From Nocardiopsis sp. FIRDI 009 (GTDB taxonomy: Bacteria; Actinomycetota; Actinomycetes; Streptosporangiales; Streptosporangiaceae): a stretch of DNA of 64,000 nucleotides. Both the position numbers and the translations under genes were made by a program. Of the stretch, positions 18,813 to 28,925 are shown one piece after another. How positions within the stretch are numbered: the stretch's first letter is position 1; each line of letters starts with the position of its first letter. Under the pieces are notes generated by a model. It was not told where the DNA came from. It saw only the letters and a program-made list of their open reading frames with translations, and made no database searches. Location of the stretch: positions 62,001 through 126,000 of the forward strand of contig NZ_QPNC01000006.1 of the NCBI RefSeq assembly GCF_003386285.1, given 5' to 3'.

Positions 18813-18932
18813 TAGGATGAACACGGAAGTAAACGTCCCGCGGGAGCCGGGTGGACCCGGCTGAGAGGGAGGCTGGTCCGGCCTCCGACCGCACGAACCT
18901 GATCCGGGTCATACCGGCGAAGGGAGTGGAAC
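18813..18932 (+). promoter_or_regulatory. TPP riboswitch (THI element) with upstream -10 box
   Basis: The conserved THI-box pieces are present in order: GAGCCGGGTGG (18844-18854), GGCTGAGAGGGA (18859-18870), then GAACCTGATCCGGGTCATAC and CGAAGGGAGTGGAA ending at 18931. A -10 like TAGGAT (18813-18818) would start transcription about 10 nt before the aptamer. TPP binding should hide the thiO start region 9 nt downstream, shutting off thiO-thiS-thiG. Confidence 0.95.
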
Positions 18933-18940
18933 CCGGCGCC

Positions 18941-20163
18941 ATGCGCACATCGAGCGATCCCCACCCCGCGACGAGTCGTCCTACCAATGCCGGCGACCGG
19001 GTGGTCGTGGTCGGCGGAGGTCTCGTCGGACGGGTCACCGCCTGGCGCGCCGCCCAGCGCGGACTGTCCGTCACCCTGGTCGAGCCCGACCCCGTCGACG
19101 AGCCGCGGCGCGCCCGGGCCTCCTCGGTGGTCGCCGCGGGCATGCTCACCCCCGCCACCGAGGCGGCGTTCGGGGAGGAGCGGCTCGTGGAGCTCGGGGT
19201 CCGTTCCGCCGGGCTGTACGCCGACTTCGTGGCCGAGCTGGAGGAGGCCAGCGGCGTTTCGGTGGGCCACCGCGCCACCGGCACCCTCCTGGTCGCCTTC
19301 GACCGGGACGACCTGGCCGTCCTCGACGACCTCCACGGCCTGCAGCGGCGCATCGGCGTCACCGGCGAGCGGTTGACCAGCCGCGAGTGCCGACGTCTGG
19401 AGCCCATGCTCGCCCCGTCCGTGCGGGGCGGCCTGCTCGCCCCCGATGACCACTCCGTGGACCCGCGGCTGCTGCTGCGCGCCCTGGCCGCGGCGGGCGC
19501 CCGGGCGGGCGTGGCCGAGGTGGGCGACCGGGTCGAGGAGGTCGACCGCTCCACCGGCGACGCCCGGCTGGGCGTGCGCCTGGCCGGGGGCGACGTCCTC
19601 CCCGCCGACCAGGTGGTCCTGGCCGCGGGCTGCTGGAGCGAACGGATCGCGCTCCCCGAGCCGGTGGTGCCGCACCTGCGCCCGGTCAAGGGCCAGCTGC
19701 TGCGGATGCGTCCACCCGCGGGCGAGCCGCCGATCGTCTCCCGCACGGTCCGCGGGCTGGTCCGGGGGTTTCCCGTCTACTTCGTGCCCCGCGAGGACGG
19801 CGAGGTCATCGTCGGCGCCACCCAGGAGGAGCTGGGCTACGACACCGCGCTGACCGCCGGGGGGCTCTGGCAGGTCCTGCGCGACGCGCGCGAACTCGTC
19901 CCGGGGGTGACCGAGCTGGAGATCACCGAGACCTGCGTCGGCCTGCGCCCGGGTTCCCCCGACAACGAACCGCTCCTGGGTCCCACCCGGATCCCCGGGG
20001 TGCACCTGGCGGGCGGACACTACCGGCACGGCGTCCTGTTGACCCCGGTCACCGGCGAGGTCATGGGCGAGGTCCTCGCCGACGGCACGCTGCCGGAGTA
20101 CGCGCGCCCCTTCGCCGCCGACCGCGAGCCGGGCGGCGACCACACGAGCACGTGGGAGAAGCA

Positions 20164-26856: not shown

Positions 26857-27903
26857 TCAGAGAGCGGCGAGCTGACGGCCCGGGGCCGGGGTCAACTCAC
26901 GGCCGCCGAGGGCGGCCAGGGTGCCCGCCACGTCGCGCAGCTCGGCCAGGTCCTCCTCCAGGAGCGCCTGGGGACCGTCGCACAGCGCGTTCTCCGGGTC
27001 CGGGTGCACGTCCACGATGACACCGTCGGCGCCGATCGCGATGGCCGCGCGCGAGAGCGGCAGGACCAGCTCGCGCTTGCCGCCCGAGTGCGACGGGTCC
27101 ACGATCACCGGCAGGTGGGACAGGCTCTGCGCGACCGGGACCGCGCTGATGTCCAGGGTGTTGCGGGTGGCCTTCTCGAAGGTGCGGATGCCGCGCTCGC
27201 ACAGGACGATGTCGAGGTTGCCGCGCTGGGCGATGTACTCGGCGGCCATCAGCCACTCCTCGATAGTGGCGCTCATGCCCCGCTTGAGCAGGACCGGCTT
27301 GCCCGCGTCACCCACCGCCTGGAGCAGGGCGAAGTTCTGCATGTTGCGGGTGCCGACCTGGAGCATGTCGGCGTAGGAGGCGACGAGCTCGACGTCGGCG
27401 GCGTCGACGACCTCGGTCACGATCGGCAGCCCGGTCTCCTCGCGCACGTCGGCCAGGATCCGCAGGCCGTCCTCGCCCAGCCCCTGGAAGGCGTACGGGG
27501 AGGTGCGCGGCTTGTAGGCGCCGCCCCGCAGCAGGGACGCACCCGCGGTCAGCGCCATGCGCGCCGCCTCCAGGGTCTGCTCCGGCGTCTCGACGGCGCA
27601 CGGGCCCGCGATGACCGTCATGTGGTCGCCGCCGATGGGCACGCCGCGCACGCTCACCACCGACCGGCTGCTGTGGTTCTCCCGGCTGACCAGCTTGTAC
27701 GGGGCGGAGATGCGCAGAACGTCGCTCACCCCAGGCTTGGCGGCCAGTCCCAGGTCCTGGAAGCGCTCGACGTCGCCGACCAGGCCGATGATCGTACGGC
27801 TCACGCCGCGTGTCACGTAGGCCTCGCCCCCGGCGGCGGAGACGAGTTCGACGAGATCGTCGATGTTGTCGGAGGTGGCGTCCGGTGCCATCACGATGAC
27901 CAT
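26857..27903 (-). CDS. aroF: 3-deoxy-7-phosphoheptulonate (DAHP) synthase, type I-beta
   Basis: It condenses PEP and erythrose 4-phosphate, the first step of aromatic amino acid synthesis. The 348-residue protein has an N-terminal ferredoxin-like regulatory domain (MVIVMAPDATSDNIDDLVEL...), then the barrel with IAGPCAVET, RGGAYKPRTSPYAFQGLG, KRGMSATIEEWLMAAEY, CERGIRTFE and DPSHSGGKRELV. ATG 27903 is used. An aromatic-rich leader peptide and a hairpin lie between promoter and gene, pointing to attenuation by charged Phe/Trp/Tyr tRNA in addition to feedback control by the N-terminal domain. Confidence 0.95.
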   Translation of the reverse strand: MVIVMAPDATSDNIDDLVELVSAAGGEAYVTRGVSRTIIGLVGDVERFQDLGLAAKPGVSDVLRISAPYKLVSRENHSSRSVVSVRGVPIGGDHMTVIAGPCAVETPEQTLEAARMALTAGASLLRGGAYKPRTSPYAFQGLGEDGLRILADVREETGLPIVTEVVDAADVELVASYADMLQVGTRNMQNFALLQAVGDAGKPVLLKRGMSATIEEWLMAAEYIAQRGNLDIVLCERGIRTFEKATRNTLDISAVPVAQSLSHLPVIVDPSHSGGKRELVLPLSRAAIAIGADGVIVDVHPDPENALCDGPQALLEEDLAELRDVAGTLAALGGRELTPAPGRQLAAL

Positions 27904-27981
27904 GTGCGTTGTCCCTGCTAGTCGTATGGGTGACTGAGCCGCGCGGCGGACGCGCTTCACCGGGTGGCCGGTCCGGAACGC

Positions 27982-28017
27982 CAAGGAGCCCCGGACCATC
28001 CGGCCCGGGGCTCCTTG
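27982..28017 (-). terminator. Attenuator hairpin upstream of aroF
   Basis: A perfect 13-bp stem (27982-27994 with 28005-28017) and 10-nt loop begin 14 nt after the stop codon of the leader peptide and 78 bp before aroF. It sits where a terminator of a ribosome-mediated attenuator is expected. A long U tract is missing, as is common in very GC-rich genomes. Confidence 0.7.
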
Positions 28018-28031
28018 TGAGGTCTTCTCTG

Positions 28032-28106
28032 TCAGCGCAGCGCTCGACAGGCGACCGTCCGAGGATCGGGCCGGTAGCCATAAAAGCGCCAGAAGTTCCG
28101 CTGCAT
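28032..28106 (-). CDS. Aromatic-rich leader peptide controlling aroF
   Basis: This 24-codon frame starts at ATG 28106 and reads MQRNFWRFYGYRP..., with two Phe, one Trp and two Tyr in a run of eight residues (NFWRFYGY), then ends at TGA 28032-28034. It lies directly before the attenuator hairpin and aroF. The box TATAGT (28119 to 28114) lies exactly 7 nt before the ATG, so translation would begin at the mRNA 5' end. Ribosome stalling at the aromatic codons when charged tRNA is scarce should prevent hairpin formation and let aroF be transcribed. A similar phenylalanine-rich leader is known for aroF of Corynebacterium glutamicum. Confidence 0.85.
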   Translation of the reverse strand: MQRNFWRFYGYRPDPRTVACRALR

Positions 28107-28113
28107 GTGAGCG

Positions 28114-28119
28114 ACTATA
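28114..28119 (-). promoter_or_regulatory. -10 box of the aroF leader
   Basis: TATAGT on the minus strand, 7 nt before the leader ATG. No convincing -35 hexamer was found at 17-18 bp. Confidence 0.6.
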
Positions 28120-28289: not shown

Positions 28290-28925
28290 GTGTCCGACGG
28301 AACGGGGGACGGTGACCGGGGGGACACGCGGGCGGCCCGGCTGCCGCCGGGCCAGGCGCTGCGGGGCGAGCACAAGGCCCTGCACTACGGGCCAGTGCCG
28401 ACCTTCCGGCCGCACAGGTGGGATTTTCGGGTGATGGGGGCGACCGAGACGCTCGGCAGCCACCGGTGGACGTGGGAGGAGTTCGGACGGCTGCCCGTGA
28501 CCGACTCGGTGAGCGACTTCCACTGCGTCATGCGCTTCAGCGTCCCGGACGTGCGCTGGCGGGGGGTGCGCGCGGTGGACCTGGTCCGGGTGGCGCCGCC
28601 CGGGCCCGAGGTCACGCACGTGATGGCCTGGGGCGAGTACGGCTACAGCGCCAACCTGCCACTGGACGTCTTCCTCGGTGAGGACGTCGTTCTCGCCACG
28701 CACCGGGGCGGTGAGCCGCTGGCCCCGGAACACGGCTTCCCGCTGCGGCTGGTGGTGCCCAGCCTGTACGGGTGGAAGAGCGTGAAGTGGCTGCGCGCCG
28801 TGGAGTACATGACCAAGGACCGGAGGGGTTTTTGGGAGGAGCGCGGCTACCACAACCGCGCCGACCCCTGGAATGAGCAGCGGTTCTCCTACCAGGAGGA
28901 GCCCGGGCACGGCCCGCCGCTGTAG
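28290..28925 (+). CDS. Molybdopterin-dependent oxidoreductase, YuiH/sulfite-oxidase-like
   Basis: This is a stand-alone oxidoreductase molybdopterin-binding domain of 211 residues. Cys79 in DFHCVMRFSVPDVRWRGV is the expected molybdenum ligand, and VPSLYGWKSVKWLRAVEYM is a typical late segment of sulfite-oxidase-fold proteins. The substrate is unknown. GTG 28290 is preferred over an ATG at 28194 because GGAGG lies 5 nt before it. No Tat signal is visible, so it should be cytoplasmic. It converges with the MacS-like kinase gene, 11 bp between stops. Confidence 0.82.
   Translation: MSDGTGDGDRGDTRAARLPPGQALRGEHKALHYGPVPTFRPHRWDFRVMGATETLGSHRWTWEEFGRLPVTDSVSDFHCVMRFSVPDVRWRGVRAVDLVRVAPPGPEVTHVMAWGEYGYSANLPLDVFLGEDVVLATHRGGEPLAPEHGFPLRLVVPSLYGWKSVKWLRAVEYMTKDRRGFWEERGYHNRADPWNEQRFSYQEEPGHGPPL

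Follow-up and report, generated by a model that had tools for sequence, protein, structure and literature searches.

The ilv and thr leaders of Escherichia coli each read more than one amino acid of a shared pathway. For the first step of aromatic biosynthesis, one of the closest described systems is the aroF leader of Corynebacterium glutamicum, which, in the available portions of the reports, specifies a Phe-Tyr-Phe peptide and mediates attenuation in response to Phe limitation (PMC11802643, PMC4046766). The uORFC-13-1 motif, known from Acholeplasma and environmental DNA, is described in the accessible part of its source as a predicted upstream ORF and terminator before aroF (PMC8632094). 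Leaderless leader peptides, among them trpL1, trpL2, ilvL and leuL, have been catalogued in Streptomyces lividans, and eight are listed in the section available (PMC8079986). A 2005 survey of the Actinobacteria, in the excerpt available, reports that genes belonging to other pathways had no conserved structures ahead of them.

In the window (the whole 64,000-nt stretch of DNA analysed), aroF lies on the minus strand (nt 27903-26857) and encodes a class Ib DAHP synthase with a ferredoxin-like N-terminal domain (NF006421 and TIGR01361 above cut-off; PF00793, PF18152). We take the attenuated DAHP synthase of C. glutamicum to belong to a different subclass. The gene is the sole class Ib match in the whole genome, which carries one class II DAHP synthase gene elsewhere, and the closest AroF among the named loci is that of Nocardiopsis lucentensis (97% identity). 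Upstream of aroF, and also on the minus strand, a -10 promoter box (TATAGT, nt 28119-28114) stands 7 nt ahead of the ATG of a leader ORF, MQRNFWRFYGYRPDPRTVACRALR, of 24 codons plus TGA (nt 28106-28032), that is kept in relatives. The putative control codons are Phe5 (TTC), Trp6 (TGG), Arg7, Phe8 (TTT) and Tyr9 (TAT) (nt 28094-28080), and Tyr11 (TAC, nt 28076-28074) follows this run. After a gap of 14 nt from the stop codon comes a hairpin with 13 perfect outer pairs, which extends to 16 with one G.U further in, and a further 78 nt (27981-27904) separate it from the aroF ATG at nt 27903. The initial annotation had given the frame, the box, both spacings and the 13-bp hairpin correctly to the base. 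The arms of the hairpin, a putative terminator, are called here region 3 (5' arm, nt 28017-28002) and region 4 (3' arm, nt 27997-27982, followed by GCGTTCCG), and both were identified from sequence and covariation. Region 2, the putative antiterminator strand CCGGCCCG (nt 28074-28067), lies within the ORF and is a perfect 8-bp complement to CGGGCCGG (nt 28007-28000), which consists of the 3' part of region 3 and two loop bases. A candidate protector hairpin, P1 (nt 28079-28050), proposed from the minimum free energy (MFE) fold and the stall profile, would sequester region 2.

The leader region as a whole (nt 28113-27890, 224 nt) gives a folding z-score of -3.45. The neighbour on the other side is a plus-strand gene (nt ~28290-28925) with only sub-cut-off matches to sulfite dehydrogenase; as it diverges from aroF, the hairpin terminates no gene. 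Directly upstream of the -10 box, the motif TGCGC (nt 28124-28120) is conserved, and no conserved -35 element was recognisable upstream of the leader box. The end of the ORF, UGCGCUGA (nt 28039-28032), is nearly invariant, and at one locus (L042) it is retained outside the ORF. No pairing partner for UGCGCUGA was found; the pairing with the 5' end that appears in the MFE fold is absent from the covariation-scan helices printed.

An AroF relative is present in 337 of the 345 genomes of the window's order. The loci sampled in this order number 89, namely 29 relatives and 60 loci chosen, among the matches listed, mostly from the best-scoring rows. Of these, 88 carry a leader with box and hairpin; at the exception, L156, there was no candidate. 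Loss of the small frame in relatives would have refuted the initial annotation, but the frame is kept, together with the promoter spacing and the hairpin, at almost every locus sampled in the order. Among 80 named DAHP synthase loci, 41 carry the leader; 71 of the 80 reached the detector described below, and the other nine had no candidate ORF or usable start. The leader-bearing loci include Nocardiopsis, Streptomonospora, Planotetraspora, Microbispora, Actinomadura, Microtetraspora, Herbidospora, Nonomuraea, Spirillospora, Sphaerisporangium, Actinoallomurus and some Nocardioides. The leader was undetected at the named loci of, for example, Amycolatopsis pretoriensis, Actinophytocola, Actinomadura macrotermitis, several Nocardioides and the Firmicutes, and at two loci (L096 and L102) aromatic small ORFs are present but failed the detector.

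The collected leaders form 119 distinct rows (69 non-redundant), chosen for a box, at least three aromatic residues and a hairpin. Phe, Trp and Tyr occur together in 111 of them, Phe and Tyr only in seven, and Phe and Trp only in one. The distance from box to start, in a set selected for the box, is 7 nt in 95, 6 nt in 16 and 8 nt in eight. Three Nocardioides DAHP synthase leaders (L065, L070, L075) contain Phe and Tyr without Trp.

High-GC DNA is rich in frames and hairpins, and the layout could in principle be a chance aromatic frame in intergenic DNA beside an unrelated terminator. The detector required TANNNT 6-8 nt before an ATG or GTG, an ORF of 12-30 aa, at least three aromatics within 10 residues and, no more than 75 nt away, a hairpin of 8 bp or longer. 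Applied to dinucleotide shuffles, it reported 0 hits in 5,000 versions of the window's 300-nt aroF upstream region, 0 in 3,520 shuffles of relatives in the window's order (88 loci) and three in 2,840 shuffles of the named loci (71 loci). A chance frame is at odds with these counts, with the divergent flanking genes, which leave no gene end at the hairpin, and with the retention of the leader across the order; its probability is negligible, and the conservation refutes it. Rfam covariance models (trp and other leaders, riboswitches) gave no match to the leader at gathering score, and four sRNA matches were all far below threshold. A riboswitch or other known RNA family was accordingly rejected for the leader, since the one match in the window to reach the gathering score was a TPP riboswitch at another position (RF00059, 64.3 bits, nt 18830-18942, plus strand).

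A de novo helix scan of the first alignment (119 rows) returned two top helices, the terminator and a pairing of the codons after the aromatic run with the terminator 5' arm. Both were then scored in an alignment of 59 sequences (A1), which leaves out ten divergent or misassigned leaders (L024, L063, L065, L068, L070, L071, L075, L078, L091 and L101). The antiterminator columns (43-49/135-141) are paired in 89.3% of cells, with changes on both sides in 28 cells and at five of the seven pairs (8.5 ± 2.2 cells in shuffles, 0/500); these cell counts overstate the number of independent events, since many of the sequences are related. Sliding the helix by one column lowers pairing to 52-54%. The terminator is paired in 96.1% of cells, with both-side changes in 79 as against 24.8 in shuffles (0/500). 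The shared strand is informative at column 139, where 14 sequences, mostly of one leader type, have U: all 14 have A at column 150, and 13 have A at column 45, while the 14th has G, giving a G.U pair. Triple changes confined to single sequences occur in L136, L164 and L042. Such coordinated changes of region 3 with both of its partners are the mark of two exclusive structures on one shared strand.

The ends of the antiterminator helix are less regular, being unpaired in 13 of 58 sequences at column 43, 10 of 58 at column 44 and 19 of 59 at column 49. By an alignment-free measure, a complement of at least 7 bp is present in 76 of 109 leaders and in 11% of shuffles, a modest signal for any one sequence (median p 0.07); among the ten leaders that A1 omits, the region 2/3 complement is no better than in shuffles (median p 0.59). 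Covariation thus supports the mutually exclusive pairing anticipated in the initial annotation, in which the codons after the aromatic run would pair with the 5' arm of the hairpin and so exclude it. Like the conservation and the layout, this exclusion rests on comparison among related loci.

A stall profile was computed in silico by masking the ribosome footprint at each codon, with its 3' edge 12 nt past the first A-site base, and folding the rest. Codons are numbered relative to the antiterminator-strand proline (Pro13 in the window), and the antiterminator values apply to the stage before region 4 is made. By position of the A site, the mean antiterminator value is 0.99-1.00 at -8 to -5, 0.83 at -4, 0.71 at -3 and 0.60 at -2, falls to 0.26-0.45 from -1 to +4, and is high again from +6, including a ribosome near the stop codon; without a ribosome it is 0.85. 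P1 averages 0.47-0.57 at -8 to -6, 0.26 at -5, 0.07 at -4 and 0 at -3, and 0.70 without a ribosome. The antiterminator is therefore predicted to be open to form, and P1 closed off, when the ribosome stalls at -5 or -4. These two positions carry an aromatic residue in 97% (-5) and 99% (-4) of 106 leaders, and the codons used there are strongly skewed: TTT in 73 and TTC in three at -5, TAT in 90 and TAC in one at -4. Elsewhere these codons are rare, with TTT at 1 of 41 and TAT at 0 of 29 positions in six window genes, and neither is ever used in 33 pooled aroF genes.

The region is very probably a ribosome-mediated transcription attenuator of aroF, as the initial annotation had proposed from the layout, and the conservation and the covarying exclusive pairing support that proposal. 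We infer stalling, the P1 step, termination and the response to amino acids to proceed as follows. Transcription would start at or adjoining the leader AUG, and the leaderless 5' end would load a ribosome at once; a box 6-8 nt from the start leaves no room for a Shine-Dalgarno (SD) sequence. When charged aromatic tRNA is scarce, the ribosome would stall on the Phe, Trp or Tyr codons, blocking the 5' side of P1 and leaving region 2 at least partly free to pair with the terminator 5' arm, so that RNA polymerase could continue into aroF. When aromatics are abundant, the ribosome would cover and pass region 2, P1 would refold behind it, and the terminator would form and halt transcription before aroF. 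The P1 step is the weak one: compared with synonymous shuffles, P1 shows no excess of stability (median z +0.46; 5.5% of 109 below -1), and its role as protector is accordingly only a proposal. Because the ribosome-free fold also favours the antiterminator, the off state would have to depend on timing and on region 4 prevailing.

The attenuator may sense all three aromatic amino acids at once, as the initial annotation proposed. The predicted switch point of the window leader, though, is formed by the codons for Phe8 (-5) and Tyr9 (-4), and Trp6 lies upstream at -7, where P1 still averages 0.57; a stall at Trp6 is thus predicted to be a weaker trigger than one at Phe8 or Tyr9. The attenuator may answer to Phe (and Tyr) only, with the Trp codon incidental, as in the aroR leader of C. 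glutamicum, which is reported, in the part of the source available, to respond to Phe and not to Tyr (PMC11802643). The seven DAHP synthase leader rows that have only Phe and Tyr speak for such a restriction. Against it stand the joint presence of Phe, Trp and Tyr in the great majority of distinct leaders, the placement of Trp at -5 itself in 27 (20 belonging to the FWYGDGP type), and the absence of Trp from the chorismate mutase leaders of Nocardiopsis described below (Fisher p 1e-7, for sequences that are not independent). Overall, a restriction to Phe and Tyr has a substantial chance of being correct, somewhat short of an even one.

TnaC exemplifies a different kind of sensor, in which the nascent chain itself arrests the ribosome. 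By analogy, the leader peptide could respond to a free aromatic amino acid and not to slow codons, and the exact sequence FWRFYGYRP recurs in 63 of the 119 leader rows. Residues vary in other leaders (FWYGDGP, VYFFWFDQPG), where the aromatic class, position and pairing are kept, and the rare TTT and TAT codons suggest selection at the level of the codon; arrest by the peptide is very unlikely.

If the region is a transcription attenuator, its hairpin should terminate, and in the window the stem is strong but the U-tract is poor: two of the 8 nt that follow are U, against three or more in 84 of 109 relatives. In Streptomyces clavuligerus, Term-seq data (as given in the available part of PMC8269248) divide 535 highly structured 3' ends at three uridines in eight into 182 U-rich and 353 U-poor ends, the latter with more read-through. 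Since the weak U-tract means that termination in the window is not guaranteed, control could instead be translational, with translation of, or stalling in, the leader opening or closing the aroF ribosome-binding site, or with reinitiation at aroF; by a loose pattern, an SD-like motif accompanies each of the 109 aroF starts examined. The distance between the hairpin and the start of aroF runs from 17 to 106 nt (median 63), with no fixed spacing, and this variability argues against direct control of the ribosome-binding site. Moreover, the conserved exclusion involves region 2 and the terminator arm. Translational control is thus improbable, only slightly less so than peptide arrest, and transcription attenuation remains the preferred reading.

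Searches with a model of the leader (R1) returned full-length matches in another genus (g87, probably Streptomyces). At 13 loci there (E 3e-17 to 3e-9), leaders such as MLTHPTFLFTYGNRPTG follow a CATACT box, and by protein pattern a chorismate mutase gene lies downstream at 12 of the 13 (L213 is unmatched; L211 was confirmed by NF005894). Trp codons are found in the aromatic cluster of one leader (L220) and later in the ORF of two (L210, L211), and are absent from the other ten. By eye, a chorismate mutase leader was recognised in another family (L226, R1 E 1.0e-8), and in two further families leaders stand ahead of class Ib DAHP synthase genes (L222, L223). Three other matches (L224, E 1.0e-9; L225; L227) have no such leader at their loci. 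R1 matches weaker than about 1e-9 are thus partly false, and the totals of 338/345 and 272/394 at E 0.01 are not leader counts.

In the window genome itself, the chorismate mutase gene (PF01817) is preceded by a putatively leaderless small ORF, MIHRYFVFSQPTVPSAADT, and a hairpin (L236:1246-1305, on G000:C60). DNA matching this stretch is present in 34 of 40 genomes of the Nocardiopsis genus; at 27 of 30 Nocardiopsis chorismate mutase loci read, a box and small aromatic ORF were found, with a hairpin of at least 7 bp at 25. These 27 leaders contain 43 Phe, 26 Tyr and no Trp codons. Chorismate mutase supplies only Phe and Tyr. The g87 leader was shown through R1 to be homologous to the aroF leader; the Nocardiopsis chorismate mutase leader is a comparable leader and at most a candidate homologue. 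A second CM_2 match in the genome (L235, G000:C31) has a signal-peptide-like N-terminus by eye and is possibly a secreted chorismate mutase.

In the same genome, a TrpE gene (matching TIGR01815 and NF010081 above cut-off) has a putatively leaderless WW-type small ORF, MRTETTLHTQWWRRS (L239:2234-2281, minus strand, G000:C21), 121 nt upstream of it, likely a Trp attenuator. Among the three trpE-type loci in the genome, this leader stands only at the one with the weakest PF04715 match, and no leaderless small ORF was found at the other two (L237, L238) or at the class II DAHP synthase locus (L002). The class II gene adjoins the anthranilate-synthase-like gene of L238 (G000:C11:330859-333378), and the pair is perhaps part of a secondary-metabolite cluster. 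Across these loci the aromatic content of the leader tracks the branch fed by each gene, as expected of an attenuator; the three Nocardioides DAHP synthase leaders without Trp run against this pattern.

Taken together, we tentatively suggest, with a little more doubt than confidence, a modular actinobacterial family of attenuators. It would have a common leaderless chassis (aromatic codons, an antiterminator strand within the ORF and a GCCCCGGGCC terminator) that is retuned for each branch, to Phe, Trp and Tyr for DAHP synthase and to Phe and Tyr for chorismate mutase, with all three aromatics sensed through a two-codon switch of rare TTT and TAT. The attenuator itself offers a testable account of how inflow into the shikimate pathway is controlled in a large group of actinomycetes, and it connects the set of amino acids that a leader reads with the branch its gene feeds. 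It extends DAHP synthase attenuation from a few reported cases to an order-wide RNA family unmatched by Rfam, indicates chorismate mutase as a further attenuated step, and offers, in the rare-codon switch point, a clean target for relating codon choice to attenuator sensitivity. A literature search, with most subscription papers lying outside it, returned nothing on a leader family in these taxa, and no earlier report was found of the RNA family, its order-wide reach or the retuned chorismate mutase copy. Attenuation, leaderless starts and leaders reading several amino acids are each already known individually.

The E. coli ilv and thr leaders share with the present one the reading, here proposed, of several amino acids, but serve another pathway and are not leaderless. 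The trp attenuators of actinobacteria (PMC1262725), as far as the available text describes them, have in common with it the leader codons, the antiterminator, a GC-rich (here putative) terminator and a conserved triple complementarity; unlike the window leader, they read Trp only. The S. lividans leaders, in the section available, are leaderless ORFs of a high-GC actinobacterium, as the window leader is predicted to be, several of them followed by a terminator, but none of the eight listed precedes a DAHP synthase or chorismate mutase gene. The uORFC-13-1 motif, compared by its description in the part of the source available, belongs to a different phylum and has a ribosome-binding site and a run of U that encodes one or more Phe, whereas the window leader is predicted to be leaderless and has mixed aromatics. 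In aroR-aroF of C. glutamicum, also an actinobacterium, a leader peptide with aromatic residues likewise precedes, in the reports as available, a DAHP synthase gene that is under attenuation, as is proposed here; its peptide is Phe-Tyr-Phe, whereas the window leader has Phe, Trp and Tyr. The initial annotation had suggested that the mixed aromatic peptide and the leaderless start would make the locus a distinct version; as such, leaderless leader peptides and DAHP synthase attenuators were already known.
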